DNA from: an alpha proteobacterium BAL199
Lineage (GTDB): Bacteria; Pseudomonadota; Alphaproteobacteria; Thalassobaculales; Thalassobaculaceae
Direction: 5' to 3'
Assembly: GCA_000171835.1 (NCBI GenBank)
Contig: ABHC01000015.1
Location: forward strand, 1 to 64,000
DNA length: 64,000 nt
The translations under genes and the position numbers were made by a program. The notes below the pieces were generated by a model. That model was not told the DNA's origin. It saw only the letters and a program-made list of their open reading frames with translations, and did no database searches. Shown here one piece after another: positions 2,152 to 17,913 of the stretch (within the stretch, counting starts at the first letter, position 1; each line of letters starts with the position of its first letter).

Positions 2152-3894
2152 TCACTTCGGTTGGAGCTTCGTGCCGTCGGCAATGAACACCGTCAACCGA
2201 ACAGGCTTTCCGCGCGTGTAATTGAATGCGGAAATCGGCTCGCCAACCGCTTGAACGCCCACACCCGCGGCGACGGCCGCAGCAAGGAAATCCTGCTTGT
2301 CGCGGTCGGTCGTGACCGCGATACCGCAGCCTGAATTGCTTCGCAGCAACTCGGCAGCATCCACAGGGTCCCCAAGTCCAGTATCAGTACCCAGATAGAA
2401 CACCGCGCTCGGCTCGGCATACCCGGTGATCGCGACCGGCTTGCGATCACAACCCGAAAGATCGTCGACAGCACGAGCCAGTGATCGTGACGGCCACAAC
2501 ATATTAAGTGCCGGAATCACTGTTTGAAACGTAACTCCGAAGAATATGACAACAGCGCCTACCAGCGCGAGCGAGCGCCCAACCGAGATCCGACGCAGGG
2601 TCCAGCACCCCGCTCCCAGCGCAACCAATCCCAACAGGGAGGCCCAGGGCGCGGTGCCAATCCAACGACCGGCGTAGCGCGTGAATTCGCGTCCCGTGAG
2701 GTCCTGAACGAGTGACGAGCCCCAGCCGGTTGAAACCATGGTTCCCACCGTTGGAACCAGCGCCAACGCTACCGTCACCACCACGAAAACCCCGACCGCC
2801 ACCCGGTGCGCCCACCGCCACCGTCCCTCGGGCTTGAAGCCGGCCGCCAGCACCAGCCCAACCAGGACCGCCAGCGCCGGATAGGTCGGCATGGTGTAAT
2901 GCGGCAGCTTGGTCGCAACCGCCTCGAACACCACGAAGGTCGGCACGAGCCAGCAGATCAGGAAGCGGATGTCATCTTCGCGCCGCCGGGCCCAGGCCAG
3001 CGCCGCCGCCGCCCCGGCCAGCAGGGCACCCGGCCAGAACGCCACGAACAGCGCGACCAGATGGTATCCCGGAGGCGCACCATGGGCGCGGTCACCGGTC
3101 GCCACTTTGCCCATCAGCGACCGGCCGATCGCCTCCTCGATGTAGGCCGGTCCGACCTTCATCGTGATCGCGGTCAGCCAGGGCAGTACCAGCGCTAGGG
3201 TCAGGCCGATGCCCGGCAGGAACCGCAGGCGGCGCAGCAGCACCCGGTCGCGCCGCCACAGACACAACACGGCAATCGTCAGCCCGACCACCAGGGTGAT
3301 CAGCGGTCCCTTGATCAGCACGCCGACCCCGTGGGCCAACCAGAACACCAACGGCGCGCCCCAGAACGCCGGACGGTCGTCGCTCAGCTTGGTCAACCGG
3401 TACAACGCGGCCTGCGCCACCGCCACGGTCGCCAGCAGCAGCGCGTCGCTGCGCGCGGTGCGGGATTCCACAGCTACCACCAGCGAGGTCGCCAGCAACA
3501 CGCCGGCCGCCACTCCGGCCGCCGGGCCGCCGATACGCGCGCCGATCCACGCGGTCGCCAGCACCGCAATCACCCCGGCGATGAACGACGGCAGTCGGTA
3601 GGCCCAGACCGGCGCATCAACCCCGCCGAACAGCTGTGCGCTGGCAGCCTTCACCCAGTAGGTGCCGGCCGGATAGCCGTAGCGCGTCGCCTCCTGCAGG
3701 CGGATGTCGACGTAGTCGCCGGTTTCCATCATCTGCTTGGTGGCCTGCAGGTAGCGGCCCTCGTCGCGGTCCATCACCGGAATGGCGGTGATCCCCGGGA
3801 ACAGCGCCGCCACGGCGATCAGCAGCACCAGCAGCCAGGCCCGCCAGGACAGGCCGCTCGGCCCGTCGCCGGCCATCCACGCGGTCGCGGTCAC
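2152..3894 (-). CDS. GT39/ArnT-like membrane glycosyltransferase
   Basis: 580 residues with many hydrophobic helices, typical of the PMT_2/ArnT family that transfers a sugar from a polyprenyl-phosphate donor on the periplasmic side of the inner membrane. The first periplasmic loop has the acidic motif MDRDEGRY (residues 41-48), where the catalytic aspartate/glutamate pair sits in this family. A further conserved stretch reads GYPAGTYWVKAASAQLFGG. The start overlaps the end of the GT2 gene by four bases (3891-3894), so the two are translationally coupled: GT2 probably makes the lipid-linked sugar that this enzyme uses. The acceptor (lipid A, LPS core or protein) cannot be told from sequence. 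Confidence 0.85.
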   Translation of the reverse strand: MTATAWMAGDGPSGLSWRAWLLVLLIAVAALFPGITAIPVMDRDEGRYLQATKQMMETGDYVDIRLQEATRYGYPAGTYWVKAASAQLFGGVDAPVWAYRLPSFIAGVIAVLATAWIGARIGGPAAGVAAGVLLATSLVVAVESRTARSDALLLATVAVAQAALYRLTKLSDDRPAFWGAPLVFWLAHGVGVLIKGPLITLVVGLTIAVLCLWRRDRVLLRRLRFLPGIGLTLALVLPWLTAITMKVGPAYIEEAIGRSLMGKVATGDRAHGAPPGYHLVALFVAFWPGALLAGAAAALAWARRREDDIRFLICWLVPTFVVFEAVATKLPHYTMPTYPALAVLVGLVLAAGFKPEGRWRWAHRVAVGVFVVVTVALALVPTVGTMVSTGWGSSLVQDLTGREFTRYAGRWIGTAPWASLLGLVALGAGCWTLRRISVGRSLALVGAVVIFFGVTFQTVIPALNMLWPSRSLARAVDDLSGCDRKPVAITGYAEPSAVFYLGTDTGLGDPVDAAELLRSNSGCGIAVTTDRDKQDFLAAAVAAGVGVQAVGEPISAFNYTRGKPVRLTVFIADGTKLQPK

Positions 3895-4664
3895 CCGCCA
3901 TCTCCATCCCGCTCGAACGGCAGGGCGCCGATGCTGGTGCGGCGCAGCAGCCAGTACACCCCCAGGAGGTCAACGATGCCGACAAGCGCACGCCGCAGGT
4001 TGGTGTACTTCGACTGACCGGAAATCCGCGGCCGGTCATCGACCGAGACGTTGACCACGTCGAAGCCGTAGCGCCGAACCAGCGCCGGCATATAGCGGTG
4101 CAGGCTGTCGAAATACGGCAACACCAGGAACAGTTCGCGCGGGATCAGCTTCAGTCCGCAGGCGGTGTCCGGGCAATCGTCGCGCAACGCCGCCTTGCGG
4201 ATCGCGTTGGCCAGGCGCGAGGCGACCAGCCGGGCCGCACCGGCGGTGCGGCGACGACGGTTTCCGGCGACCAGTCCGACCGAGCCGATGCGGCCCAAGT
4301 CGACGCGACCGGCCATCGCCACCAAATCGGAAGGATCGTTCTCGCCGTCGCCGTCGATGGTCGCGACCCAGCGCGACCGGGCGGCGAACATGCCGGTGCG
4401 GAGCGCCGAGCTCTTGCCGCAGCGGCTGGAGTGCCGGATCAGCCGGATCCGCGGCTCGACGCTCGCAGCGGCCTCCACCACATCGGCCGATCCGTCGACG
4501 CTGCCGTCGTCGACCACCACGATATCGAGAGCGTAGGCATCGCCCGCCTTCGCCAGAAGTTCGCGCAGCACGACCGGAATGCTCTCCGCCTCGTCACACA
4601 CCGGAATGACGACGGACAGCGCGGGGCGCTTGGAGCCGGGTCGGGATTCACCGCCATCGGTCAT
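3891..4664 (-). CDS. Family 2 glycosyltransferase (polyprenyl-phosphate sugar synthase-like)
   Basis: 257 residues. The GT-A fold signatures are all visible: SVVIPVCDEAESIP at about 17-30, VVDDGSVDGS at 51-59, and the metal-binding DxD as DGDGENDP at 104-111. The sequence resembles dolichol-phosphate mannose synthases and DPMS-like bacterial enzymes, which load a sugar from a nucleotide donor onto undecaprenyl phosphate at the cytoplasmic face. There is no long C-terminal membrane domain, only a modest hydrophobic stretch (LVGIVDLLGVYWLL). Directly coupled to the ArnT-like gene. The sugar is unknown. Confidence 0.85.
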   Translation of the reverse strand: MTDGGESRPGSKRPALSVVIPVCDEAESIPVVLRELLAKAGDAYALDIVVVDDGSVDGSADVVEAAASVEPRIRLIRHSSRCGKSSALRTGMFAARSRWVATIDGDGENDPSDLVAMAGRVDLGRIGSVGLVAGNRRRRTAGAARLVASRLANAIRKAALRDDCPDTACGLKLIPRELFLVLPYFDSLHRYMPALVRRYGFDVVNVSVDDRPRISGQSKYTNLRRALVGIVDLLGVYWLLRRTSIGALPFERDGDGG

Positions 4665-5849: not shown

Positions 5850-6692
5850 CTACTTCATGGTCGCCAGAAAGGCGATGCCGACCGCCACGACGGCAGCGGC
5901 TCCGCAGCGCTGGCGCCAATGGCTCTCCCCCAACAGCAGGGTGCCGATCAGGGCGGCGATGATCACACTGGACTCCCGCACCGCCGAGATCGCCGCCAGC
6001 GGCGCCAGGGTCGCGGCGTAGATCACGAAGGAATAAGCGGCAACCGACAGCAACCCTCCGGCCAGGCCCTTGACCACGCCGGATGCGGGGATCGCCCGCA
6101 ACGTCCGGCGTCGGCGCAGCAGCACGAACAGGGTGACCGGAAACTCCCAGACGAACAGCCAGCCCATATAGGCGAACGGCGATCCGGATACCCGCACGCC
6201 CATGCCATCAACCACGCTGTAGGCGGCGATGATCATTCCAGTCGCCACCGTGAAGAACAGGGTCGGCGGGTGATCCCACATCCCGCCGCGGCGCGACAAG
6301 GCGATCGCCGAAATTCCGACCGACGTCAGCAGAATCGCAGCCCATCCGGCGGTAGACAGCGCCTCACCCGCGAACGTCCAGGCACCCAAGGCTACGAGCA
6401 ACGGCGCCAGCCCGCGCGCCAACGGGTAGACTTGGCTGAGGTCGCCAACCCGGTAAGCATGGTGCAGGCAGATGTAGTAGCCGTAGTGCAGCAGGGTCGA
6501 TGCCAGGATGAACGGCCAACTCGCCGGGTCCGGAATGCCAGCGAATCCGATCATCACGGCGCCGACCGCGGTGTGCGCCAGCGCGATCAGTGCCAGCACC
6601 ACCGCGCGGTCCATGCCGACCTTCACGATGGCGTTCCAACTCGCGTGCATGACCGCCGCAATCAGCGTCAGAACCAGAGCTTCGAACGGCAT
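5850..6692 (-). CDS. EamA/DMT-family membrane transporter
   Basis: 280 residues from the ATG at 6692. About ten hydrophobic helices form two repeats, as in the drug/metabolite transporter superfamily. Recognisable EamA features are MHASWNAIVK near the start and the second repeat around PLAAISAVRESSVIIAALIG followed by LLGESHWRQR. An in-frame ATG at 6737 would add 15 polar residues; I prefer 6692 because the first helix begins right after it. The gene lies between the matrixin-like gene and the GT4 gene on the same strand. Some DMT proteins flip lipid-linked sugars, which would fit the neighbouring glycosyltransferases, but the sequence alone does not show this. Confidence 0.8.
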   Translation of the reverse strand: MPFEALVLTLIAAVMHASWNAIVKVGMDRAVVLALIALAHTAVGAVMIGFAGIPDPASWPFILASTLLHYGYYICLHHAYRVGDLSQVYPLARGLAPLLVALGAWTFAGEALSTAGWAAILLTSVGISAIALSRRGGMWDHPPTLFFTVATGMIIAAYSVVDGMGVRVSGSPFAYMGWLFVWEFPVTLFVLLRRRRTLRAIPASGVVKGLAGGLLSVAAYSFVIYAATLAPLAAISAVRESSVIIAALIGTLLLGESHWRQRCGAAAVVAVGIAFLATMK

Positions 6693-6796
6693 CGGAAATC
6701 CATCGGACAGCGGCGCACGCCGCGCCGTCCCTTCCATACATCGAAAATCATCGAAATGTCAGGGCGGCGTCGACCTCAACGATCGCCATGCTGCCG

Positions 6797-7591
6797 TCAG
6801 CACGCGGAGTCGCGTGGCGTAAGAGCGGTTCTTCTTGGTTCGGCTCCGCAGTGCGCAGCGGCGTGCGGGGCAACCAAGTCCGCCGCAACGGAGGGCAGCA
6901 ACGGCGGGTTTGCGGCCGTTCGACCGATCGGCCCGTACAGCATGACAGCGCCCGCTATATCGCCAGGCTGCAGTTCGCGGAACTGCTCGTCGTAGCGGAA
7001 CGACATCAGTTGCCCCGACGGGCCAGGGTGGTCTAGGCCGATGGCGTGGCCGATCTCATGCGCCAGCGCGTAGCGAAGATCGTAGACCGAGACATCGCCG
7101 CCGAAACCGACCTTCCACGGCTTCTCCGGGTTCAGGCAGACAAGAGACCGTCGAATGGTGCGAACGTCGCCGGGACCGTTCGGCTCGTAAGAGACGTCGG
7201 CAAAGGCGACATCGCGCGGCTGGGTCTGGGCGCCGATCAGGATCTGGGCGACTGCGGGGTCATCAATCCGATTGAAACGGATGTTTGCCGATGCCTGCCA
7301 CATCGCAAAGGCGGCCTCCGCCTCGCGCTCCAACACCGCGGCCGGGATCGCCGATCGGGTCAGCAACCCGTCGAGCGCCTGCATGTCGCGGCAGTTCCGA
7401 GCCTCGGTATTGTGCACCGTCCCTGTGGCGAAAGCGTATGTCACCGTTGTTCCGGCTCCGGATTGCGGAGCGCCCCATTTGACTCGAAAGCTGTCGAGCT
7501 GCAGCCAGTTGAACTGTGGTCCGGCAACCGCTCCGCCTATCCAGAGTGCGAGCCCTGATGCGACAAGCGGTACAATCAATCGGTTCAACAC
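6797..7591 (-). CDS. Secreted matrixin-like (M10) zinc metalloprotease
   Basis: 264 residues. A signal peptide covers about 1-23 (MLNRLIVPLVASGLALWIGG). The zinc motif HEIGHAIGLDH sits at 178-188, with the three histidine ligands and the catalytic glutamate E179, and LMSFRYDE downstream supplies the Met-turn. The layout matches the catalytic domain of matrixin/astacin-like metzincins, without hemopexin or calcium-repeat domains, so it is a small stand-alone periplasmic or secreted protease. The substrate is unknown. The tail (about 225-264) is low-complexity and cysteine-containing. It is upstream of the EamA and glycosyltransferase genes on the same strand. Confidence 0.85.
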   Translation of the reverse strand: MLNRLIVPLVASGLALWIGGAVAGPQFNWLQLDSFRVKWGAPQSGAGTTVTYAFATGTVHNTEARNCRDMQALDGLLTRSAIPAAVLEREAEAAFAMWQASANIRFNRIDDPAVAQILIGAQTQPRDVAFADVSYEPNGPGDVRTIRRSLVCLNPEKPWKVGFGGDVSVYDLRYALAHEIGHAIGLDHPGPSGQLMSFRYDEQFRELQPGDIAGAVMLYGPIGRTAANPPLLPSVAADLVAPHAAAHCGAEPRRTALTPRDSAC

Positions 7592-7791
7592 TGGCGCTTC
7601 CCATGCCTACCGAACACACCGACCTCTGGAGCCCTGCTGGCTTCCCACCTGCGAGATCGGCTCCCCCTCGGGAGGCACGAACCCTAACGGCTGGCCGGTA
7701 AACGTACGGTAAACAAGTGACGCCCGACGCGATCGGCGGCGCGATGCTAACCAACATGGCGCCGCCGAAAAAGCGCGTTGTTGAAGCGCGA

Positions 7792-7817
7792 ACGGCCGCC
7801 CCGGTTGGGGCGGCCGT
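7792..7817 (-). terminator. Strong GC hairpin, probable terminator of the PRC-barrel gene
   Basis: ACGGCCGCCCC (7792-7802), loop GGTT, GGGGCGGCCGT (7807-7817): a perfect 11-base-pair stem with a four-base loop. It lies 50 bases past the stop of the minus-strand PRC-barrel gene. A short T run follows farther out on the minus strand. The rest of 7592-7866 shows no gene. Confidence 0.65.
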
Positions 7818-7866
7818 CGACCGTCATTTTAGCCTGCCAGGCTTCAATCAAGGAGCCCGGTGCATG

Positions 7867-8409
7867 TTACTGCTTGGGAAGCGTACCCGTGGTCGGTGCC
7901 GGGGTGGACATCTTCTGCTGCTGCTCCACCTTGATATCGACCAAGGTCTTGTACTTCGGCATCTCCGCAAGTTCTTCCTTGGACATGTTGATCATCGCGA
8001 CCGCGGAGCCGTCGGTCTCCTGCACGTCAAGCGCATCCCAGGCGACACCGACATCCTTGGCACCAAGGCCAAGGAGCCCGCCGACCGACAGCACCGCGCC
8101 GACAATCTTGTTCTGGTCGTCAAGGATCAGATCGGCGACTTCACCAATGGATGCGCCGTCGGGCCCGACTACCTTCATGCCAAGCAGATCGGACGACAGA
8201 ACCTGACCGTCCTCCTGGACGGTCAGCGTGCCGCCAGCGCTCGTCGTGGTCGACGCCCCGGTCGACGGGGCCGGCTCGGTCGGAGCAGCCTGGGTCGGTG
8301 GCGACGACGGATCAGTGGTAGGAGACGGGGTCGTGCTCTGGGCAAACGCTGGGGTCGCCAACGCCAACGCAATTGCCGAAGTCATGGCAAGTCGGGACCA
8401 ATTGGTCAT
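7867..8409 (-). CDS. PRC-barrel domain protein, exported
   Basis: 180 residues from the ATG at 8409, chosen because AGGAGGAAAG sits 5 bases before it; an ATG at 8430 is in frame but lacks a site. Residues 1-23 form a signal peptide (ending TPAFAQS). A Thr/Ser/Pro-rich linker (24-60) leads to a PRC-barrel domain at about 70-160 (VLSSDLLGMKVVGPDG, ASIGEVADLILDDQNKIVG, VGVAWDALDV). PRC-barrels bind partner proteins or RNA; exported ones are common in alphaproteobacteria but their function is largely unknown. A group of dyads lies upstream at 8506-8549. Confidence 0.8.
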   Translation of the reverse strand: MTNWSRLAMTSAIALALATPAFAQSTTPSPTTDPSSPPTQAAPTEPAPSTGASTTTSAGGTLTVQEDGQVLSSDLLGMKVVGPDGASIGEVADLILDDQNKIVGAVLSVGGLLGLGAKDVGVAWDALDVQETDGSAVAMINMSKEELAEMPKYKTLVDIKVEQQQKMSTPAPTTGTLPKQ

Positions 8410-8505
8410 TATCTTTCCTCCTGCGCTCATCCATCCCGCTGCGTTTGGCCGTTCCCTTCGATTGACTTGGCGACAAGACCTGGACAGTTCAACGAAGGGC
8501 CGAAA

Positions 8506-8549
8506 CTTGTCTCAGACAAGACACGGATCCGTCACAACTGATGTTCAGT
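8506..8549. promoter_or_regulatory. Cluster of three dyads upstream of the PRC-barrel gene
   Basis: Three perfect inverted repeats follow each other: CTTGTCT-C-AGACAAG (8506-8520), ACGGATCCGT (8523-8532) and ACTGA-TGT-TCAGT (8537-8549). They lie 97-140 bases upstream of the PRC-barrel start and just past the stop of the SpoIIE-type gene. They may be operators, a terminator for the phosphatase gene, or both. Confidence 0.35.
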
Positions 8550-8567
8550 GGTCAGTCTGCCCTGTCG

Positions 8568-10574
8568 TCAGGCGGCCGGGTCGATCCGTGCGACAAGGCA
8601 TGTCATGTCGTCGGACTGCGCGACGCCCTGGGCAAAGTCGTCGACCACTTTCAGGCAGTGATCAGCAACGTCCGCCGACGACCGATCACGGACCTGCGAC
8701 AGCGCTGATATCAGGCGCTCGTCACCGAACTCCTCGCCTTCGGCACTGAAGGCTTCGGTCAGGCCATCGGTGTACAGCAGCAGCACATCGCCGGGCCCCA
8801 TACTGGTCCGGCCTTCCCGGAACGTCGCGCCGGGTACCACCGCCAGGATCGGATCACCAAGCGGCGCCAATGTCAGGATCGAGCCGTCCGCCTTGAGCAC
8901 ATGGGGCGGATTGTGCCCGCCATTCGCGTAGACCATCGTCCCGGACGACACATCGATGACGCCGTAGAACACCGTCACGAACATCGCCGCGTCGTTCTCT
9001 GCCTCCAGCAGGCTGTTCACCCGACCGAGGCACACCCCAGGCCCTTCTCCCACCATGCCCGCTGCCTTCAGCAGGGTCCGGGTCACCATCATGAACAGGC
9101 TGGCTGGAACACCTTTGCCAGAGACGTCGGCGATCACCACGCCGACCCGATCGTCGTCGATCTGGAAGTAGTCGTAGAAGTCGCCCCCAACTTCGAGCGC
9201 CGGCTGCATGCGGCCGACAATACCGAGCCTGCCGTGCTGCAAAGGCTGGCGCGGCAGGACCGCCGCCTGCATGTCACGGGCGATCTGCAGTTCCTGACGA
9301 ATCCGCACCAGATCGGCGTTTTCTCGGAACACCGCAGTGACTGTCCTGAACCAAGGGCGCCACGCCACCGGCACGCGCGGCGGCCCGCTGGGCCCGACTT
9401 CTCCGGCGGCCTTGATATGCTCGACCAGCCGGCTCGCCGGTTCGACAAACTCGCGCCTGGTCAGCCAACCGGCGATGAGCAGCATGATCGTCAGTACGAT
9501 GACGAGCGCCAGGGTCTGCGGCCCGTGCTCGACGACCAGCGCGCCCAGAACGGCCCAGCGATCCCCGATATAGACCAGGGTCCAGGGAGCAGCCTCCAGG
9601 CGCTCGACGTAGGTCAGCACCGCGCCGTCGCCGACCACCCGTCGGTCGGGGCGATCCAGCGCTTGGTCGATGCGCCGAACAACCATCTCGGGCAGCGTAT
9701 TCCGGTAGGCCGCACCCAGTGTCACCGCGCTCTGAACGGCCTGAGGGTAGGCGAGCACGGCGCCGTCCGGGCCAAGCAGAGCTGTCCCCCCGACTGGATA
9801 GTCGAAATCTCCGTTCACGCGTCCGAGGTAGGGGACAGACACCTGGAGGGCGACAGCTCCAACGAACCGGTCCTCGCGATAGACCGGTGCCAGATGAACG
9901 ATACCGCTATGGGCTCCGGGCAGGTCGCTGCCGTCCAGCCAGACCGGGCTGCGAGTCGGATCCCGCCCGGCCGACACGGCATCAAGCAACACAGAGCGCA
10001 TCGGTTCGGACACGAACTGCTCAGCTTGCAAAGGCGTGGCGGGAAGCAGCACAGCGAAGCCACGCACCGAGACGTAGTAGGCACGATCGACGATCGGCAG
10101 CAACGCCACCAGATATCGAAAATCGTCGAGCAAACGGACGGCGGTTCGAACCTCCGAGGACGCTGCGTCGAGGTCGACGGCTCCGAGACTGCCGGCGACC
10201 GCCGCAGTGGGTGGGATCTGCCGCTCACCATCCGTCCTAAACACGAGGCGTCCATCGGCTGCCAGCTCGACGAATCGATGTTCGGTGTGGTCGGGATCAT
10301 CCATGTCGACGCCGAGGGCGGCGGTCTCTTGCAGCTCCCTGACCCGTGCTGCTACCGCATCGGCCAGCGCATCCAGAATCAGGGCGTGTTCCTTGGCTCG
10401 CCCAGCAATCGCCCGCCATTCGGCTTTTTCGCGATCGTCGATCTGCAAGACAAAGAACCCGACTGCCGCCGTGACCAGCACCGCGTAGGCGAGGCGCAGG
10501 ATGAGGGCATAGCGACGCATCAGAGCCATGCGCTCCGATCGGGCATCGCCTCTGGTTTCCCCCATCAGTTCCAT
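8568..10574 (-). CDS. Membrane sensor with SpoIIE-type PP2C phosphatase output
   Basis: 668 residues from the ATG at 10574 (GGGAG lies 5 bases before it). A membrane helix at about 20-42 is followed by a long periplasmic region (about 43-330) that looks like a double Cache sensor, then a second helix (LALVIVLTIMLLIAGWL) and a short linker. The C-terminal half is a PP2C/SpoIIE phosphatase: LQIARDMQAAVLPRQ, then VGGDFYDYF, IADVSGKGVPA and LLLYTDGLTEAF, with the metal-binding aspartates present. It would dephosphorylate an anti-sigma antagonist or a similar phosphoserine target in response to a periplasmic signal. It lies 35 bases downstream of the PF04392 binding-protein gene on the same strand. 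Confidence 0.88.
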   Translation of the reverse strand: MELMGETRGDARSERMALMRRYALILRLAYAVLVTAAVGFFVLQIDDREKAEWRAIAGRAKEHALILDALADAVAARVRELQETAALGVDMDDPDHTEHRFVELAADGRLVFRTDGERQIPPTAAVAGSLGAVDLDAASSEVRTAVRLLDDFRYLVALLPIVDRAYYVSVRGFAVLLPATPLQAEQFVSEPMRSVLLDAVSAGRDPTRSPVWLDGSDLPGAHSGIVHLAPVYREDRFVGAVALQVSVPYLGRVNGDFDYPVGGTALLGPDGAVLAYPQAVQSAVTLGAAYRNTLPEMVVRRIDQALDRPDRRVVGDGAVLTYVERLEAAPWTLVYIGDRWAVLGALVVEHGPQTLALVIVLTIMLLIAGWLTRREFVEPASRLVEHIKAAGEVGPSGPPRVPVAWRPWFRTVTAVFRENADLVRIRQELQIARDMQAAVLPRQPLQHGRLGIVGRMQPALEVGGDFYDYFQIDDDRVGVVIADVSGKGVPASLFMMVTRTLLKAAGMVGEGPGVCLGRVNSLLEAENDAAMFVTVFYGVIDVSSGTMVYANGGHNPPHVLKADGSILTLAPLGDPILAVVPGATFREGRTSMGPGDVLLLYTDGLTEAFSAEGEEFGDERLISALSQVRDRSSADVADHCLKVVDDFAQGVAQSDDMTCLVARIDPAA

Positions 10575-10609
10575 AGGCACTCCCGAATTCCGCCGCGTTG
10601 AACGCCAGA

Positions 10610-11857
10610 TCAATCAGCCGGCGAAACGCGCTGACCGAACGCTCGCACCTGACGTCCATCGTAGTCGTAGATGAATGTTGCCGCTTCCATGAACCGAAAC
10701 GGGATGCGCAGGCCGATCCGCCCGGCCGCCCGGAAGCTGATGGCAATGTCCGGCGGCGTAACCACCCCGACCGGAAGCGTTCCCACTGCCTGAACGCCGG
10801 TAAGAACATCGGCGGCGTAGTGGGCTGCGAGTTGCACGGCGGTCGACTGATTGACTCCGATCGAGACGACGGCGCTGGCATCACCGCCCCGGACCACATC
10901 GGGCAAGGTCGCGATCACCGGCATCCGACCACCCAGGCGATTAATCAGTTCGATCTCGCGGTACACGCTGGTCGAGCCGGTGATGATCCAGGCGGTGGTG
11001 CCGAACTCCGGTTCGAACCCCGCCAACGCCTCGGTAACCGCCGACATTCCATCGGTCAGGTCAGCCCGCGCAGACAACCCATCACGGACGGCGACATCGA
11101 GAACGGTCAGCTCCATCTCAGAGGCGATTGCATGCAAAGGCTCGACCTGGGTCTCCACCGCGCTGCGGTTCGAAAGATCATAGAGAACCGCGATAGTGTG
11201 GAGCTTCGGTAGCAGTTCGCGCAGATAGCTGATGAACAGGCGAACGGGCACGGTGTTGGACGTGTACGCGATGTTCGTGCCGCTGCCCGAGTGGTAGCCG
11301 GGCATCTGTCCTCGGAGCACCGGATCCTTCGAGGCGCTGGTAACGACCGGTATGCGGCCACCACTGTAGGTCCGGTGCAGGTACTCGGTCGCGTCCGAAC
11401 CGACCGGCATGATCAGATCAACGGCATTGGCCTCGGCCCAGTCCACTGCTTCCGATGCGATCGCCAGATCGGTGTCGTAGAACCAGATATCGAACACCGC
11501 CGGAACTTTCCGTTCCTGAAAGGTCGAGAGAATCGCATTGACCGAGATCGAATAAGCCGTTTGCGACGCAAAGGGGATCAGCAGCAGGACTCGGCGTTCG
11601 ACAGACGGCACCTCCCCCTTTGATCTGGCTGTGATTCGAGCGGTGTCGGATGGATCGGCGGTGATCGTGTAGAACGACCTGACCCGCTCGTTGAAGTCCA
11701 ACCAGTCAAGCACCGGGCGCGCTGCTTGCACGGGGCCCGCCGCCAACACCGAACACAGGAAAGCCAGCGCCAGCAACCAAACGGCCGCTGATCGTACGAA
11801 ATCCCCTGCCTTCCGTTCAATAATCACGGCGTTCCACTCGGTACTTAGTCTCGGCAT
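10610..11857 (-). CDS. PF04392-type periplasmic binding protein (ABC_sub_bind family)
   Basis: 415 residues from the ATG at 11857. The start is uncertain: GTGs at 11881 and 11827 are also in frame. An N-terminal signal helix (AAVWLLALAFLCSVLAAG) is followed by a two-lobe binding fold: VERRVLLLIPFASQTAYSIS, VDLIMPVGSDATEYLH, TIAVLYDLSNRSAVE, GVNQSTAVQLAAHYAADVL. These resemble PF04392 proteins, which often sit beside sensory proteins and not beside ABC permeases. No permease or ATPase gene is adjacent; the neighbours are a sensor phosphatase and a double-sensor membrane protein. I infer that it binds a small ligand and hands the signal to one of them. Confidence 0.78.
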   Translation of the reverse strand: MPRLSTEWNAVIIERKAGDFVRSAAVWLLALAFLCSVLAAGPVQAARPVLDWLDFNERVRSFYTITADPSDTARITARSKGEVPSVERRVLLLIPFASQTAYSISVNAILSTFQERKVPAVFDIWFYDTDLAIASEAVDWAEANAVDLIMPVGSDATEYLHRTYSGGRIPVVTSASKDPVLRGQMPGYHSGSGTNIAYTSNTVPVRLFISYLRELLPKLHTIAVLYDLSNRSAVETQVEPLHAIASEMELTVLDVAVRDGLSARADLTDGMSAVTEALAGFEPEFGTTAWIITGSTSVYREIELINRLGGRMPVIATLPDVVRGGDASAVVSIGVNQSTAVQLAAHYAADVLTGVQAVGTLPVGVVTPPDIAISFRAAGRIGLRIPFRFMEAATFIYDYDGRQVRAFGQRVSPAD

Positions 11858-11945
11858 GACATCGCGACCGTACTGTTTCACGATCGCGCAATGGACGGCA
11901 ATCGCTGGACGGTTCTCGCCGTTGCAACCGTCCCTCCATCTCCTA

Positions 11946-11969
11946 TGCTATGGCATTTGCTATGGCATT
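11946..11969. repeat. Perfect 12-base tandem repeat in a divergent promoter region
   Basis: TGCTATGGCATT occurs twice without a gap (11946-11957 and 11958-11969), between the divergent PF04392 and double-sensor genes, 18 bases before the start at 11988. Adjacent same-direction copies are a common arrangement for activator binding. Confidence 0.45.
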
Positions 11970-11987
11970 CGCACCAGACGGGTCGGA

Positions 11988-13112
11988 ATGGTGAGTGAAC
12001 TGGCAGACAGAACCGTCGACTCAACGTCCGAGACATCGGCGGTCGCTGCCGCGCGCGTCCGTGTCGCCGTCGTACTCGCCACGACACTCGCGGCAATCCT
12101 GATCCTGAGTGGAATCACCTGGGCGCAAGTGGCTGCCCGCTTCGATACGAACCGGGTCCACACCGAGGGCGAAACTATCCGCAACGCGATGTCCGGCATG
12201 CTGTCGATGGGCTTGCCGCTAGGAGATTTCATCGGATTCCAGGCCGTATCGGCCCGCGTGCTCCGTGCCGATCCAGCAATCCAGGCGGTCATCGTGCGAG
12301 ACCGTAACGGTCAGGTCGTACTGTCCAACCCGAACGACTTGGGCGCCGCCGGCTCCCAACCGGCCTTGGCGTTCACATCAACCGCAGCAGGCGACGTGAC
12401 GACCGTCGACGGGCCTCAATCCACCACCCGCCTCGCCATGCCGATCGTCGACCGCTTCGGCCCGGCCGGCAGCCTGGAATTGATCTTCGAACGTGCGCTG
12501 ATCCACGAGTTGACCCGCAATGCTGCGGCGGCAGGGTTGGCGGCGATTGTTCTGCTTGCCACGGGACTCATGGTGCACTGCCTCGCAATCGCAAACCCCG
12601 AATACTTTCAATCGAGACGTGACCTGATCCGCACCTACGCCGCTACCTGCGTGCTTGGGATCGGCCTTGTCGTGTCCGCGTTGATCGGTCTGACAGCCGA
12701 GAAGGCCGAGGAAACCGCCGGCGTGTATGCACAATCCCTCGGAGCCCGTTTGACCGAGGCCGTTGATCTCGGCATCTCCCTCGACGATCTGTCGGGACTC
12801 GATGACGTCGTCCGGGAATACCGTGATACCAACAGCGTCATCGGCTACGTGGCGCTGCTCGAAGGCAATCGGATCGCCACCAGCACCGGGCTCGACGACA
12901 CCGGTGGTCGGTGGAGTCGTCCCACCGGTTACGTCGATGCCGCTTACGAGGTGAGACCCCGCCGTCTCTACACGCCGCAGTATCGGGTGCGGGTCGGTAT
13001 CCGTTGGTCCACTGCGCTGCGCGCCACTGCCGAAGCGGCGGTTGCTCCAATCGGCATCCTGGTGATCGTCCTGATCCTCGGAGCAATCGCGATCACCAGG
13101 GCCCGGGCGTAA
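11988..13112 (+). CDS. Membrane protein with two periplasmic sensor-like domains and no output domain
   Basis: 374 residues from the ATG at 11988 (the frame is open upstream, but that part looks non-coding). Helices at about 24-44, 188-210, 228-248 and 348-368 frame two extracytoplasmic loops. The loops look like copies of one unit: MLSMGLPLGDFIGFQAV with VIVRDRNGQVVLS in the first, and AVDLGISLDDLSGLDDVV with VALLEGNRIATST in the second. This resembles the sensory half of HAMP-type receptors, but the protein ends a few residues after the last helix (ITRARA), so it has no kinase, cyclase or phosphatase domain. It is divergent from the PF04392/SpoIIE pair and probably works with them. Confidence 0.7.
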   Translation: MVSELADRTVDSTSETSAVAAARVRVAVVLATTLAAILILSGITWAQVAARFDTNRVHTEGETIRNAMSGMLSMGLPLGDFIGFQAVSARVLRADPAIQAVIVRDRNGQVVLSNPNDLGAAGSQPALAFTSTAAGDVTTVDGPQSTTRLAMPIVDRFGPAGSLELIFERALIHELTRNAAAAGLAAIVLLATGLMVHCLAIANPEYFQSRRDLIRTYAATCVLGIGLVVSALIGLTAEKAEETAGVYAQSLGARLTEAVDLGISLDDLSGLDDVVREYRDTNSVIGYVALLEGNRIATSTGLDDTGGRWSRPTGYVDAAYEVRPRRLYTPQYRVRVGIRWSTALRATAEAAVAPIGILVIVLILGAIAITRARA

Positions 13113-13126
13113 AATCGGACGTGACG

Positions 13127-13145
13127 GACGCGGCCGGTCCGCGTC
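13127..13145 (+). terminator. Possible hairpin after the double-sensor gene
   Basis: GACGCGG (13127-13133), loop CCGGT, CCGCGTC (13139-13145). It begins 15 bases after the stop at 13112 and has no T run, so it is only a weak terminator candidate. Confidence 0.3.
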
Positions 13146-13209
13146 ATGCTGTCGACCCATCCAAGACGACCCCTCCCGGCGCGCCACCTCCATTCAAGGG
13201 AAGTACACC

Positions 13210-14808
13210 ATGCCCGCGCATCAAAGCCGCTCACCCATCCGTTCGGTCAAGGGCATGGTCGCTGCCGCCCATCCGCTGGCCGCCGCCGCCGGCGCGGCCA
13301 TGCTCGACTCCGGCGGAAACGCCTTTGACGCGGTGGTGGCGACCGCCGCCGCGCTCAACGTCGCCGAGCCATACATGTCCGGTCTGCTGGGCCTGGGGAT
13401 GGCCACCTGCTGGGTGCAGAGCGAGGGTCGGATTCGCACCCTCGACTTCCAGACGCCGGTACCCAAGCGATTCCCGATTGACACCATCGGCAAGGTGGCG
13501 ACGACCGATGGACCATTGGCCGGCGGGACGCCCGGCAGCCTAGCCGGCTGGTCGACGCTGCTTGAGACTTACGGCCGGAAGTCCCTGGCCGAAGCCCTTG
13601 CCCCGGCGATCACGCTGGCCAGCGACGGTGTGCCGATCTCGAACTTCTACCTCGACATGCTGGCCGCGGTCGCCAACCGGTCGATGTCCGAGGAGTGGCG
13701 GCGACTCTACGCATTCAACGGTTCGGCCCGCGCCGGGCTGGTCCTACGCCAGCCGGAACTCGCCGAGACACTGGCAGGCATCGCCGCCAACGGCTCCGGA
13801 ACGCTGTACGGCGGAGCGCTCGGCCGCAAGCTGAGCGAACACCTTGCTTCCCTGGGAGGTTGCATCGGCCTTGACGACCTTGAGGCTGTCCAGCCGGTCT
13901 GGGAGCAACCGCTGCACGCCGAATACCGTGGACTGTCGGTGCATGTGCCGCCGCCGCCGGCGGAGTCATTCCAATTCCTGCTGACCCTGCGTCTATTGGC
14001 CGAGACCGATTTCGGCAAACTCGACCACCTCGGTGTCGATCATTTGGACCGAGTGTTCCGGGCGATTCGGCTGGCAGCAGAGTTGCGCATCCGGCGGAAC
14101 CGATCGACCCCCGATGCGATCCAGGATCTCCTGTCCGAGGCTTCGATCGCCCCGCTGCGCGATCGGCTCACCGACGGCTCGCCGATCTGGGGACGGACCG
14201 AGCAGCACGGCAGCGGGCCACTGGTCACCGGGCCGAGCCTTAAGGAGCACACGACGTCGTTCTCGGCGATGGATGCCGACGGCAACGCGGTGTGCATCAC
14301 CCAGAGCCTTGGCTCGCCCTGGGGGTCCGGCACGGCGATCCCGGGAACCGGCCTGTGCCTGAACAACTTCATGAACTGGGGCGATCTGGCCCCCGACTCA
14401 CCAAACTTCCTGAAGCCGGGCGAGCGCTATGCCATGTGCCTGGCCCCGTCAGTGTCGCTGTCGAATGGTGTGCCGGTGCTGTGCCTTGGCACTCCCGGCA
14501 GCTACGGCATTCCGCAGACTCAAAGCCAGGCGATGGTGCACTACGCGGGCTACGGTCTCGACCTGCAGGCAGCGCTCGACGCGCCGCGCGGCCGGTTGTG
14601 GGACGGCCATAAAGTGGCGCTCGAAAGCCGGGTTGCGCCGGATGTCGTGGAGGCGCTGAACAGCCGCAGACACGAGGTGGCGCTGATGGGACCGTATTCC
14701 TGGTCAGCCGGCGGCATGCAGGCGGTGGCGCGCGATCCGCAGTCCGGCTCGTTCGCTGGAGCGGCCGATCCACGCCGCGACGGAGCCGCCGTGGCGGCCA
14801 CCCGCTGA
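13210..14808 (+). CDS. Gamma-glutamyltransferase family protein
   Basis: 532 residues. The Ntn-hydrolase layout of this family is clear: GMVAAAHPLAAAAGAAMLDSGGNAFDA near the start is the usual N-terminal block (shown here only in part as AGAAMLDSGGNAFDAVVA), and KEHTTSFSAMDADGNAV marks the self-cleavage site. The new N-terminal nucleophile would be T348. GTGLCLNNFMNWG further on matches the oxyanion/substrate region. Such enzymes hydrolyse or transfer gamma-glutamyl groups from glutathione and related compounds. No signal peptide is evident, so it may be cytoplasmic, like the YwrD-type members and unlike classic periplasmic Ggt. The neighbours do not specify a substrate. Confidence 0.88.
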   Translation: MPAHQSRSPIRSVKGMVAAAHPLAAAAGAAMLDSGGNAFDAVVATAAALNVAEPYMSGLLGLGMATCWVQSEGRIRTLDFQTPVPKRFPIDTIGKVATTDGPLAGGTPGSLAGWSTLLETYGRKSLAEALAPAITLASDGVPISNFYLDMLAAVANRSMSEEWRRLYAFNGSARAGLVLRQPELAETLAGIAANGSGTLYGGALGRKLSEHLASLGGCIGLDDLEAVQPVWEQPLHAEYRGLSVHVPPPPAESFQFLLTLRLLAETDFGKLDHLGVDHLDRVFRAIRLAAELRIRRNRSTPDAIQDLLSEASIAPLRDRLTDGSPIWGRTEQHGSGPLVTGPSLKEHTTSFSAMDADGNAVCITQSLGSPWGSGTAIPGTGLCLNNFMNWGDLAPDSPNFLKPGERYAMCLAPSVSLSNGVPVLCLGTPGSYGIPQTQSQAMVHYAGYGLDLQAALDAPRGRLWDGHKVALESRVAPDVVEALNSRRHEVALMGPYSWSAGGMQAVARDPQSGSFAGAADPRRDGAAVAATR

Positions 14809-14816
14809 CCGGTGGC

Positions 14817-15062
14817 TCAGCCGCGCTGCTCCGGGACCCTGGTGTCGAACAGGGCCACGAGATTTCCGTACATCTGATCGGCGTCTTCCACCTCGGTCAG
14901 CGCCGAGATCTGGTAGACGGCCGCGCGAAACGAGCCCGGATCATATTGCTGCCATGCGCCAAGCCCCATGAGTCCCAGCACTGGAGTCGAGAGCACGACG
15001 ACCGTTGCGAAGAGGCAGAACAGGCTCCCGCGCAAGATTTTGAAGACCATGGCAGCCCCCAT
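14817..15062 (-). CDS. Small single-pass membrane protein, function unknown
   Basis: 81 residues from the ATG at 15062. A hydrophobic helix covers about 9-35 (SLFCLFATVVVLSTPVLGLM), followed by a soluble acidic tail ending VPEQRG. I do not recognise the family. Its start overlaps the stop of the DUF1328 gene by one base (TGATG at 15064-15060), so the two are probably co-translated. An ATG at 15050 is an alternative start. The stop lies 8 bases from the convergent gamma-glutamyltransferase stop. Confidence 0.6.
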   Translation of the reverse strand: MGAAMVFKILRGSLFCLFATVVVLSTPVLGLMGLGAWQQYDPGSFRAAVYQISALTEVEDADQMYGNLVALFDTRVPEQRG

Positions 15063-15235
15063 CACAACGGACTGCGGCCGCGCAGGACCCCGACCAGGGC
15101 GCTGATTACCAGCAGCACAAGGAACACAACGAACAGGATCTGCGCGATGTTGGCCGACGCCGCGGCAATTCCACCAAAACCGAAGACGCCTGCGACGATG
15201 GCGAGAATGAAGAACAGTACGCTCCAGCCCAGCAT
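15062..15235 (-). CDS. DUF1328 (YtjA/UPF0391) small membrane protein
   Basis: 57 residues from the ATG at 15235, which is preceded by GGAAGGAAACCACC. The sequence [20 protein letters not shown], then [15 protein letters not shown] and a second helix ending in GVLRGRSPL, is the standard DUF1328 pattern: two membrane helices in about 55 residues. Members are widespread and often stress-induced, with no known activity. It is followed at once by a second small membrane protein. Confidence 0.85.
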
Positions 15236-15400
15236 GGTGGTTTCCTTCCGCCTTTCGTTCAACTGACCGAATAAACCCCAAGACCCCGCCTCCGGTTCCC
15301 GCCACATCCGCCCAAGGGGGCAAACCGGGTGGTTGTCACGACGCGAAAATGCGGCCCAGGATGCCCGCCTGACGCGCGGGCAGAACACGAGGAGACGGAC

Positions 15401-16285
15401 ATGTCGGACACCATTGGCGTTATCGGGCTCGGCAACGCCGGATCATCACTGTGCAAAGCTCTGTCGGGGCGTGTGCCGCTGATCGGTTTCGACCTGAGCG
15501 AGGTTCGCCGCGACGCTGTATCCGGGCTCGACATCGCCTGTGTTGCTTCGGCAGCCGACGTTGCCGCCAAGGCCGGGCGGATCATCCTGTCGCTGCCGAA
15601 GCCCGAAGCTTCGCTGGCGGTGGTCGACGAGATCCTGGCCGCCGGCCATCGCCCGGAGATCGTGATCGAGACCAGCACGGTCACCCCCAAGACCGCGATC
15701 GACGCTCACAAGCGCTGCAAAGCTGTCGGCGTCGGCTTCGTCGACGCGGCGATCGCCGGCGGTGTCGCCAGCATGGCCTCGGCCAAGATCACCTTCTTCC
15801 TGGGCGGCGACTCAGAAGACGTGGCCAAGGCCCGGCCGGTGCTGGACCTGCTGGCCGAGCGGATATTCGAACTCGGTCCGATCGGCGCCGGCATGGGAGC
15901 CAAGGTCGTCAACAACGGCGTCATGCACGCCGTCATGGTGGTGCTGATCGAGGCGTTCGCCATGTCGACCAAGCTGGGCGTGCCGATCCAGACCATGATC
16001 GACATCCTGAACCGCGAGGAAGGTCTGATGCGCCCGCTGGTCCACCGGGTGCAGGAGCGCATGGTCCAGGGCGACTACAACGCTGGCATGTCGGTCAGCA
16101 ACGCCCGCAAGGACTCCGTTCTGGCACTGGAAACCGCCCAGCAACTCGGCGTGCCGCTGTTCGCCACGCTGGCCGCCCATACGCCGTATGAGATCGCCGA
16201 GGCGAAGGGCATGGGCGATCTGGATTACGCCGCGCTGGCCCGGTTGTGGGAGGACTGGTCGGCCGTGTCGTTCCAGAACGGTTGA
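15401..16285 (+). CDS. NAD(P)-dependent beta-hydroxyacid dehydrogenase (HIBADH family)
   Basis: 294 residues from the ATG at 15401, with ACGAGGAGAC just before it. The N-terminal Rossmann motif reads [36 protein letters not shown] and the substrate-binding stretch [23 protein letters not shown] follow. The catalytic lysine is expected in [15 protein letters not shown]. The C-terminal all-helical domain is complete. Members oxidise 3-hydroxyisobutyrate, tartronate semialdehyde and similar acids; the exact substrate is not clear. Before the IS insertion downstream it may have formed a unit with the amidohydrolase gene at 17948. Confidence 0.85.
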
Positions 16286-16339: not shown

Positions 16340-17913
16340 AGGCTGTTGCAGAATCACCGGTTCCACCGACGATCTCCGCTTGACCCACTGACGGGGTCCT
16401 GATTCCGTTGGGAGAGGCAATTTGAAGGGGGGGGAGATGGCAAATTTTTACCGAGAACCAGATCGTAGGCAGCGGTTTCTTCTGCCGGTGGACATGGCGG
16501 ATTGGGTTCCGGACACAGACCTCGTGCACCTTCTTCTGGATGCCGTGGGTTTGATGGATCTATCGGCATTCGAGACGCACTACCGGAAGCGTGGGTCGGG
16601 AGCGCCACCGTTCGCGCCGAGGATGATGGTTAGTCTCCTTGTTTATGCGTATGCGAACGGGCAACGCTCAAGCCGCAAGATCGAGCGCCTGTGCGTGCGG
16701 GATGCTGGGTTTCGGACGATCGTGTGCGCCGAGGTTCCCGACCACAGCGTGATAGCGCGGTTCCGCAAGCGGCACCGGGGCGACCTGGAGACCCTGTTCG
16801 TGGAGGTCCTGAAGCTGTGTCATGCGGCGGGGCTGGTGCGGTTGGGCGTGGTGGCGCTGGATGGGACCAAGGTGAAGGCAAATGCGTCGCTTGCGGCGAA
16901 CAGACCTCGAAGTCCCTGGAGGCGGAGGTTGCCGCCATGCTGTCGGAGGCCGAGGCGATCGATGCCGCCGAGGACGGGATGTTCGGGGAGGGCCGAGGTG
17001 ACGATGTTCCCGTCGGGCTGAGGAAGCCGTCAGATCGGCTGTCCCGTCTTCGCTCCTGTCATGAACGTCTCTTGCGCGAAGCCGACCATCAACGGGTCGA
17101 GCAGCAGGAGAAGATCAACGCCCGGATTGCCGAGGAAAAGGCGAACGGAAAAGCCAAACGCGGGCGGAAGCCGAAGACAGCCGAGGCGGTTGTCAAGGAA
17201 GAGGCCAAGGCCAACGTGAGCGACCCGGACAGCCGGATCATGAAGAGCCGCAAGGGATATCTCCAGGGGTACAATGCCCAGGCGGTGGTGACGGCGGACC
17301 AGATCATCCTCGCCACCGATGTGACGAACCAGGCCAACGACGTTCGCCAACTGGCCCCGATGATTGCCCGGACCCTGACGATGATGGAGGCGGTGACCGG
17401 CGACGAGGCGGTGCTGGGGGTTGGCCTGTTTGACGCGGGCTATTGGTCTGACGAGAACGCGGCCACGGAAACAGCGGAATGCGAATACCTGATCGCCACC
17501 ACTAAGGATTGGAAGCAGCGCAAGGCGATGCGTGATGCTCCACCACCCCGGGGCCGTATACCCAGGGACATGAGTGCCCGTGACCAGATGGAGCGTAAGC
17601 TCCTGACCCAACGGGGCCGAAAACTTTACCGGCTGCGCGGCCAGACCGTGGAACCGGTGTTCGGGCAAATGAAGGAGACCCAGGGCGCAGACGGATTCAT
17701 GATGCGCGGGGAGCAGGAGACCCAGGGTGAATGGAACCTGCACTGCGCCGCCCACAACATCAAAAAACTACACTCGGAGTCCGTCCGCAGAGGAAGAAAG
17801 GGTGGAAAATGGCTCTTGAACTGAAGCAATTGGACAAGAAAAATGCCGTCTGAGGGCAAAATCACCGGATAGCTGCTTCATGCCGTCAAGCCAGACTCAT
17901 TCAGCAACAGGCT
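16340..17913 (+). mobile_element. IS1182-type insertion sequence, complete but frameshifted
   Basis: A 1574-base element. The left end, AGGCTGTTGCAGAAT (16340-16354), and the inverted right end, AGCCTGTTGCTGAAT (17913-17899), match at 13 of 15 positions. CCTAAG flanks both sides. The transposase belongs to the IS1182 group (IS1182-type DDE) and is split by a one-base frameshift. The element sits between a dehydrogenase gene and an amidohydrolase gene without interrupting either; it may have separated genes of one operon. Base composition is similar to the host. Confidence 0.8.
16437..17824 (+). pseudogene. IS1182-family transposase, frameshifted
   Basis: The first part, from the ATG at 16437 (GGGGGGGGAG before it), reads MANFYREPDRRQRFLLPVDM..., the usual N-terminus, through PDHSVIARFRKRH to GVVALDGTKVKANASLAANR, with the first DDE aspartate in ALDGTK. 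Near 16900-16910 the frame moves by -1 and the protein continues as KSLEAEVAAMLSEAEAID..., then GYNAQAVVTADQIILA, GVGLFDAGYWSDENA and VEPVFGQMKETQG, to the TGA at 17822-17824. The join matches one missing base around AACAGACCTCG. I see no slippery heptamer, so this is more likely decay or a sequence error than programmed frameshifting. Confidence 0.75.

Follow-up and report, generated by a model that had tools for sequence, protein, structure and literature searches.

The 64,000-nucleotide stretch analysed here (the window; alpha proteobacterium BAL199, contig ABHC01000015.1, positions 1 to 64,000) carries at 8568-13112 a cluster of three genes, which encode a PF04392 periplasmic binding protein (BP), a membrane SpoIIE-type phosphatase and a membrane protein with two sensor-like loops. 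That these genes form a signalling unit is well supported: conservation, gene order, domains, catalytic motifs and, in relatives, the co-location of kinase and STAS genes or their fusion with SpoIIE are observed directly. The best explanation of the unit, to which we give about an even chance, is a binding-protein-assisted input to a partner switch, and the main argument for it rests on the co-occurrence of the genes and on their arrangement in one distant genome, G235 (G000 is the window's genome; other G and L labels denote compared genomes and loci). Reading of the open reading frames (ORFs) together with a Pfam scan gives a minus-strand pair, BP then SpoIIE, and a divergent membrane protein on the plus strand, with the following features (TM, transmembrane).

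8568-10613, minus strand: membrane SpoIIE-type (PP2C-like) phosphatase; the start may lie as early as TTG 10613 but more likely at ATG 10574 or GTG 10580
8583-9158, minus strand: SpoIIE catalytic domain (PF07228), metal-site motifs GGDFYD, ADVSGKG, LYTDGLTEA and SDDMT
9543-10436, minus strand: extracytoplasmic sensor region between the two TM segments of the SpoIIE protein, from hydropathy; possibly dCache-like
10610-11857, minus strand: PF04392 (ABC_sub_bind) periplasmic BP with signal peptide, without adjacent ABC genes
11858-11987, no strand: divergent intergenic stretch between BP and sensor, in which a consensus promoter scan gave no sigma-70-like site
11988-13112, plus strand: standalone double-sensor membrane protein of 374 residues with four TM segments and no output domain, from hydropathy and relatives
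12132-12518, plus strand: sensor loop 1, residues 49-177, with PAS/Cache-like alpha-beta order in a low-confidence model
12708-13013, plus strand: second sensor loop (residues 241-342); a short part of it matches loop 1 in a repeat-like way

Co-occurrence was assessed in a set of 61 genomes, made up of the window's own, 35 of its genus or family and 25 of its class. Nine of the 61 have strong BP matches (13 proteins, E 3.4e-102 or better), and the same nine have the sensor (14 proteins). The N-terminal region of the SpoIIE protein is present in five (G000, G001, G002, G026 and G030), which are exactly those with a standalone sensor. The order sensor, divergent BP, SpoIIE is kept in four of these five Thalassobaculum-group genomes, and the three genes also stand together in the distant alphaproteobacterium G235, so that the conservation in relatives on which the initial annotation made its proposal depend is found; Thalassobaculum litoreum DSM 18839 is among the carriers. 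Over 36 genomes of the order, the sensor profile returned the same nine, with one extra weak match (E 6e-4) in G005, and standalone sensors in 5/36. Among 386 genomes of the class (up to four candidates scored per genome), the BP reaches E 1.2e-98 or better in 11, the next best match being 2.3e-16, and the sensor reaches E 6e-58 or better in the same 11, the next genome standing at 4e-8; the overlap has p 1.6e-21 if genomes are taken as independent, which they are not. These 11 are two genomes of the window's family, G235 and eight with loci of another kind, described below (L138-L145). The module is nevertheless sparse, since a phylum search (up to five candidates per genome) gave strong sensor matches in only 4 of 397 genomes.

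The second line of evidence concerns the partners that a SpoIIE phosphatase would require in a partner switch. In G235, which belongs to another family, one strand carries a standalone sensor, an RsbW-type kinase (PF13581, E 2e-19) whose gene overlaps the end of the sensor gene, a STAS protein (E 9e-17) and a Castor/Pollux-type channel, while the other strand carries BP, SpoIIE (39% identical to the window's), TauD and a sensor-MFS protein; an AAA ATPase and HMGL follow on the first strand. The channel gene lies directly 3' of STAS (L137 4237-6225); as a general part of the system it was rejected, being found in 0/9 other genomes searched. In G000, one strong HATPase_c_2 match (E 1.6e-17; next 3e-6) is followed by a STAS gene on contig C68, about 14 kb from a second BP gene.

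C68:127254-127625: G000 RsbW-type kinase, HATPase_c_2 match
C68:126901-127209: G000 STAS protein, directly after the kinase

Putative partner-switching kinase and STAS genes are present, then, both in G000 and inside the cluster in G235. An AAA protein near the G000 pair is 41% identical over 169 residues to that of the G235 cluster, and the pair shares a contig with the second BP locus also in G001, G002, G026, G030 and G034. G034 and G005, which are without the cluster, encode a single SpoIIE-HATPase_c_2 protein followed by STAS (the G034 protein was checked against Pfam), with kinase parts 32-34% and STAS proteins 44% identical to those of G000. From these arrangements we infer that the window SpoIIE would act on the C68 kinase/STAS pair. 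A second SpoIIE/HATPase/STAS set is present in G026 and G030, where cross-talk between the sets may occur.

A conserved protein of about 390 residues is also encoded beside the RsbW/STAS cassette; the two that were scanned had no Pfam match. G000 has two such ORFs; the L187 protein matched the second (27% identity) but not the first.

L187 9731-10882: ORF of the ~390-residue protein
L188 11308-12489: ORF of the ~390-residue protein
L189 3902-5029: ORF of the ~390-residue protein
L186 10759-13115: region of the ~390-residue protein

The SpoIIE protein of the window matches PF07228 at 170 bits against a cut-off of 25, and the four metal-site motifs are kept in 4/4 aligned sequences, its own included; on domain and metal-site residues, it is predicted to be a SpoIIE/PP2C phosphatase. 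Within G000 it is the sole strong SpoIIE match (E 4e-49), the other two reaching 1.6e-6 and 2.3e-4. Hydropathy and Pfam give two TM helices flanking an outside region of about 300 residues, then a linker and the SpoIIE domain. For the outside region, dCache_1 matched at E 4.5e-4 in the T. litoreum orthologue, under the curated cut-off, and at E 0.14 in G001; among the four regions scanned, those of the window and of G235 gave no dCache_1 match. Identity with SiaA was rejected (NF038263, 44.5 bits against an equivalog cut-off of 700, at residues 438-678). In G002, a metagenome-assembled genome, the SpoIIE gene reads in several frames, which we take as an assembly error because the gamma-glutamyltranspeptidase gene next door and TauD elsewhere are split too.

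The BP belongs to PF04392, covering positions 57-284 of the 293 in the profile at 60.3 bits (cut-off 25.9). Its start is probably ATG 11857, followed by an N-terminal hydrophobic segment with an end that, by eye, resembles a signal-peptidase site, and between its stop codon (10612-10610) and the SpoIIE gene there is either a 2-nt overlap, if SpoIIE starts at TTG 10613, or a gap of about 35 nt, if it starts at ATG 10574. No ABC permease or ATPase was found among nine ORFs scanned over 5853-16282 and two over 2155-4664. As the initial annotation had described, a PF04392 protein without adjacent ABC genes is thus followed by a membrane SpoIIE phosphatase. The TrpX equivalog was rejected for the BP (NF041285, 57.7 bits against a cut-off of 390).

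The only solved relatives found for the BP are 3lft, 6hni and 3lkv. According to a published study, PF04392 proteins with structures (CD0873, VC_1101 and SP1069) bind Tyr, Phe or Trp (PMC6816091). We placed the CD0873 selectivity positions Glu-263 and Tyr-279 on the BP alignment by spacing, identity to the solved proteins being low. The Glu-263 position is Leu in 13/13 BPs; the Tyr-279 position is Gln in five of the 13, the window's included, and Leu in eight. All four BPs from window-type loci have Gln there, like the tryptophan binder SP1069. Judged by these selectivity residues, the BP may take a ligand different from those of the solved proteins. BPs of the second locus have Leu in 8/9, and the exception with Gln is that on contig C4 of G001, the genome without a window-type BP; this would fit the remaining BP having taken over, although one site in one genome gives no ligand prediction.

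For the plus-strand membrane protein, the initial annotation had used a start at TTG 11691, giving an ORF of 473 residues that overlaps the BP gene. That start is too early, because similarity to relatives begins at about 11997; the nearest start, ATG 11988, gives the 374-residue protein listed above. Its four hydrophobic helices and two loops agree with the earlier description, and it stops just after the fourth helix (TM4) and therefore has no output domain. Loops 1 and 2 match each other over 33 columns (hhalign probability 90%, E 1.9e-6, in a single comparison). The window sensor had no Pfam match above the cut-off and no NCBIfam match; among 14 double-sensor members, any matching Pfam family was confined to one member, and no Cache family was among the matches. 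Foldseek with the low-confidence sensor model returned PAS/Cache-type domains from E 0.015, its top hit (E 2.4e-3) being an unrelated integrative model, and a search of PDB sequences with the sensor profile gave nothing convincing (best E 0.081).

Based on these findings, we propose a scheme in which ligand, physical contacts, signal direction and downstream target are inferred. The secreted BP would capture a small molecule, and the loaded BP, or the ligand itself, would be read by the extracytoplasmic part of the SpoIIE protein and by both loops of the standalone sensor; lacking an output domain, the standalone sensor would serve as a co-receptor. Such a reading would change the activity of the cytoplasmic SpoIIE domain, which would dephosphorylate a STAS protein phosphorylated by the RsbW-type kinase (G000:C68:126901-127625). 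The freed STAS protein would then trap the kinase, and the downstream target would be altered.

The family to which the sensor belongs is best seen at the second BP locus of G000 (C68:111984-113147). The BP there, 51% identical to the window's, is the only other copy in the genome, and the order is TauD dioxygenase, BP, TPR membrane protein and a long fusion, then HMGL on the opposite strand. The first ~350 residues of the fusion are a double sensor and the remainder is an MFS transporter (MFS_1, E 6.4e-21).

L034 (G000:C68:106500-118500) 7941-10388: sensor-MFS fusion near a PF04392 binding protein

Nine fusions align at 64% mean column identity. In the MFS part, pattern searches found GYNGGLIVGTGIGG in 9/9 fusions and GRALGGIGQG in 8/9, which we take to be like MFS motifs C and B, respectively. 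The window sensor is homologous to the N-terminal half of the fusion (E 2.7e-16), and is itself without an MFS domain, ending after TM4. On this homology it is assigned to a double-sensor family, most members of which, among those found, are fused to MFS and usually lie near a BP. The absence of an output domain in the initial annotation stands; the membership in a sensor-MFS family had been missed. The second locus is whole on one contig in six genomes (G000, G001, G002, G026, G030 and G034) and broken by contig ends in G005 and G006.

The eight class loci L138-L145 carry an ATP-grasp/D-Ala-D-Ala-ligase-like gene, sensor-MFS and BP in this order on one strand (8/8), and two further genomes from the phylum search, G467 and G630, have the same order. 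All ten blocks have a signalling-type neighbour: a histidine kinase in L138, L139, L141, L143 and L145 (in L145, a 131-residue ORF without Pfam match stands between it and the BP), a dCache-containing adenylate cyclase in L142 (dCache above the curated cut-off), a GGDEF-EAL protein in L144 (dCache score below it), PAS-GGDEF-EAL proteins in L239 and L240, and in L140 a 248-residue GAF-only ORF about 100 bases from the contig end, in which no output domain was read. The neighbour adjoins the BP in seven blocks and the ATP-grasp gene in three (L138, L143 and L144).

As a control, 12 diverged PF04392 loci were hand-picked, not drawn at random, from the listed class matches. A signalling-type neighbour occurs in 3/12 of these against 10/10 ATP-grasp loci (Fisher p 4e-4), or against 9/10 if only neighbours with an output domain are counted (p 0.0035). 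The three control flanks are a receiver/HisKA fragment in L206, an adenylate cyclase in L203 and a chemoreceptor beyond the ABC block in L201. ABC pairs in the controls were called by motif and hydrophobicity, and flank proteins were scanned with Pfam (10 + 7 + 5; one flank for L203). A PF04392 gene without an ABC pair is not rare, 7/12 of these loci having no adjacent pair. L203 (109-14822) also has PF04392 arrays on both strands, with 11 BP-profile matches in 17 kb, and its plus-strand array runs with a 4-nt overlap into a dCache-HAMP adenylate cyclase; the pairing of PF04392 proteins with Cache receptors is therefore not confined to the clade of the window BP.

Outside the Alphaproteobacteria, a tblastn search of plasmids found the fusion in seven records (six near full length, the seventh with the MFS half only) and the BP in six, all from Vibrio, where annotations read only 'MFS transporter' and 'ABC transporter substrate binding protein'. 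In V. gigantis, V. tubiashii and V. crassostreae (L212, L213 and L214) an ATP-grasp gene is followed by sensor-MFS, BP and a second gene of binding-protein type by annotation; the single example of this last gene that was scanned had no Pfam match. The module stands, in all three stretches read, within a type VI secretion cluster, between tssH and an FHA gene; FHA proteins are a phospho-reading family. On the plasmid of Vibrio sp. THAF190c (L216 2214-8284), an unassigned gene, an MFS protein with, by eye, a sensor-like N-terminus and a PF04392 protein precede a VgrG-like gene.

Taken as a whole, these loci raise the possibility, which we hold with somewhat less than even confidence, of a new receptor-transporter type: a PF04392 BP and a double-sensor MFS protein, together with locally encoded enzymes (an ATP-grasp ligase or a TauD dioxygenase) and outputs that vary by locus (histidine kinase, cyclic di-GMP enzymes, adenylate cyclase, SpoIIE partner switch and possibly type VI secretion). 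Production, export and sensing of a single small molecule may be combined in such a locus, and the window cluster would be its transporter-free, signalling-only offshoot. Instances of the BP/sensor-MFS module are scattered over Alphaproteobacteria and Vibrio plasmids. Our literature searches, judged by titles and the openings of abstracts, found no description of this module, and nothing on type VI secretion with ATP-grasp, MFS transporter and substrate binding or on sensor-fused MFS proteins (transceptors), which is not proof of novelty.

Several observations weigh against the partner-switch reading of the window cluster. In G000 the RsbW/STAS pair and the window are on separate contigs, and the pair in G034 and G005 goes with a different, fused SpoIIE protein. 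In G001, sensor and SpoIIE are divergent with no BP between them (its second BP is present), so that the BP is not strictly needed at that locus. In G004, TauD-BP and TPR-fusion-HMGL are on separate contigs, away from the ends, so that BP and sensor-MFS are separable. The three Vibrio loci read have no adjacent kinase or cyclase, contrary to the neighbour rule of the ATP-grasp loci. The structure models are poor (pLDDT 51.7 for the sensor, and 34.3 for the SpoIIE protein, modelled from two sequences), and our analysis identified no sigma factor or other target. Nor is physical contact demonstrated by gene order, as a precedent in Pseudomonas aeruginosa makes clear: there, three binding proteins are encoded near histidine kinases with no evidence of activating them (PMC11113362). 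The three-part partner-switch model of the initial annotation is accordingly retained in part, since the order sensor, kinase, STAS in G235 and the lone strong RsbW/STAS pair in G000 speak strongly for it, while G001 speaks against a strict need for the BP.

If the BP were mainly a transport partner of the paralogous sensor-MFS protein, delivering ligand to it or taking ligand from it, the cluster in the window would be a secondary, regulatory copy reporting on that transport. The BP does follow directly after sensor-MFS in the eight ATP-grasp loci of the class and the two added ones, the MFS half is retained in those ten and in Vibrio tubiashii, and enzyme genes (ATP-grasp or TauD dioxygenase) are co-clustered with the pair. 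We nevertheless consider this reading unlikely: the window cluster itself has no MFS, a TPR gene separates BP and sensor-MFS in the window's family, where G004 has them on separate contigs, and the ten ATP-grasp loci have signalling-type neighbours as well. Moreover, we know of no binding-protein-dependent MFS transporter.

That only the sensor and SpoIIE cooperate, with the BP an accidental or dispensable neighbour, would suit both G001 and the published precedent of neighbours without a functional link (PMC11113362). This seems to us improbable, as strong BP and sensor matches share their genome distribution (11/386 class and 9/36 order genomes) and lie close together in two paralogous loci as well as in other families, and the window-type BP pair of G026 and G030 (BP-A) has a dN/dS of 0.17.

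The standalone sensor could also be the decayed remainder of a sensor-MFS fusion after loss of the transporter part, given the N-terminal homology and the shared four-TM layout, and the G002 copy does end early, inside TM4. We hold this to be very improbable, since standalone sensors persist in five order genomes and in G235, those of the window and G235 forming one clade (support 100/99, to be read with caution as long branches meet), while the G026/G030 orthologues have a dN/dS of 0.19, indicating purifying selection, and the five copies read contain no internal stop. Least probable of all is an ordinary ABC binding protein with its permease and ATPase elsewhere in the genome: many binding proteins do work with distant permeases and 5/12 of the diverged PF04392 loci have an adjacent pair, but neither G000 copy has ABC genes as immediate neighbours and none were recognised among the ORFs, scanned in part, that are listed around the other BPs of this clade. 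The earlier claim that the BP has no ABC partner holds in this respect for both copies, no search of the whole genome for a matching permease having been made.

Beyond the cluster, a gamma-glutamyltranspeptidase family gene (13210-14808) directly follows the sensor gene. The same gene adjoins the sensor in G001 and G002, but the sequence read near the sensor in G026 and G030 gave no match to it. At 16422-17824, overlapping frames judged by eye are transposase-like and apparently split by a frameshift.

To our knowledge, the input of an outside signal to SpoIIE-type partner switches is known for few systems. We found no paper joining a periplasmic binding protein, SpoIIE and partner switching, in a search that covered subscription papers thinly. 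With binding protein, co-sensor and phosphatase together, and a likely kinase/STAS pair in one genome, the whole chain would be testable in Thalassobaculum litoreum DSM 18839.

Among known systems, the partner-switching scheme of RsbU/RsbV/RsbW (Bacillus subtilis sigma-B; PMC8256260) and SiaA-type systems resemble ours in that a membrane sensor with SpoIIE, an RsbW-type kinase and a STAS protein are encoded. Compared with RsbU/V/W, the window cluster adds a dedicated binding protein and an output-less double sensor, and its kinase and STAS genes are on another contig. The aromatic amino-acid binders CD0873, VC_1101 and SP1069 share the Pfam family of the window BP, which differs from them in having no ABC partner beside it. 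The paralogous fusion shares the MFS_1 domain and motif-like patterns with drug/metabolite exporters of the MFS type, and departs from these in its fused N-terminal four-TM double sensor and in the BP encoded nearby. LuxP-LuxQ, ChvE-VirA and TorT-TorS are binding-protein-dependent receptors. As in those systems, a binding protein without an ABC partner of its own stands here beside a putative membrane receptor; unlike them, the window cluster would deliver its output through a phosphatase instead of a histidine kinase, and includes a second, output-less membrane sensor.

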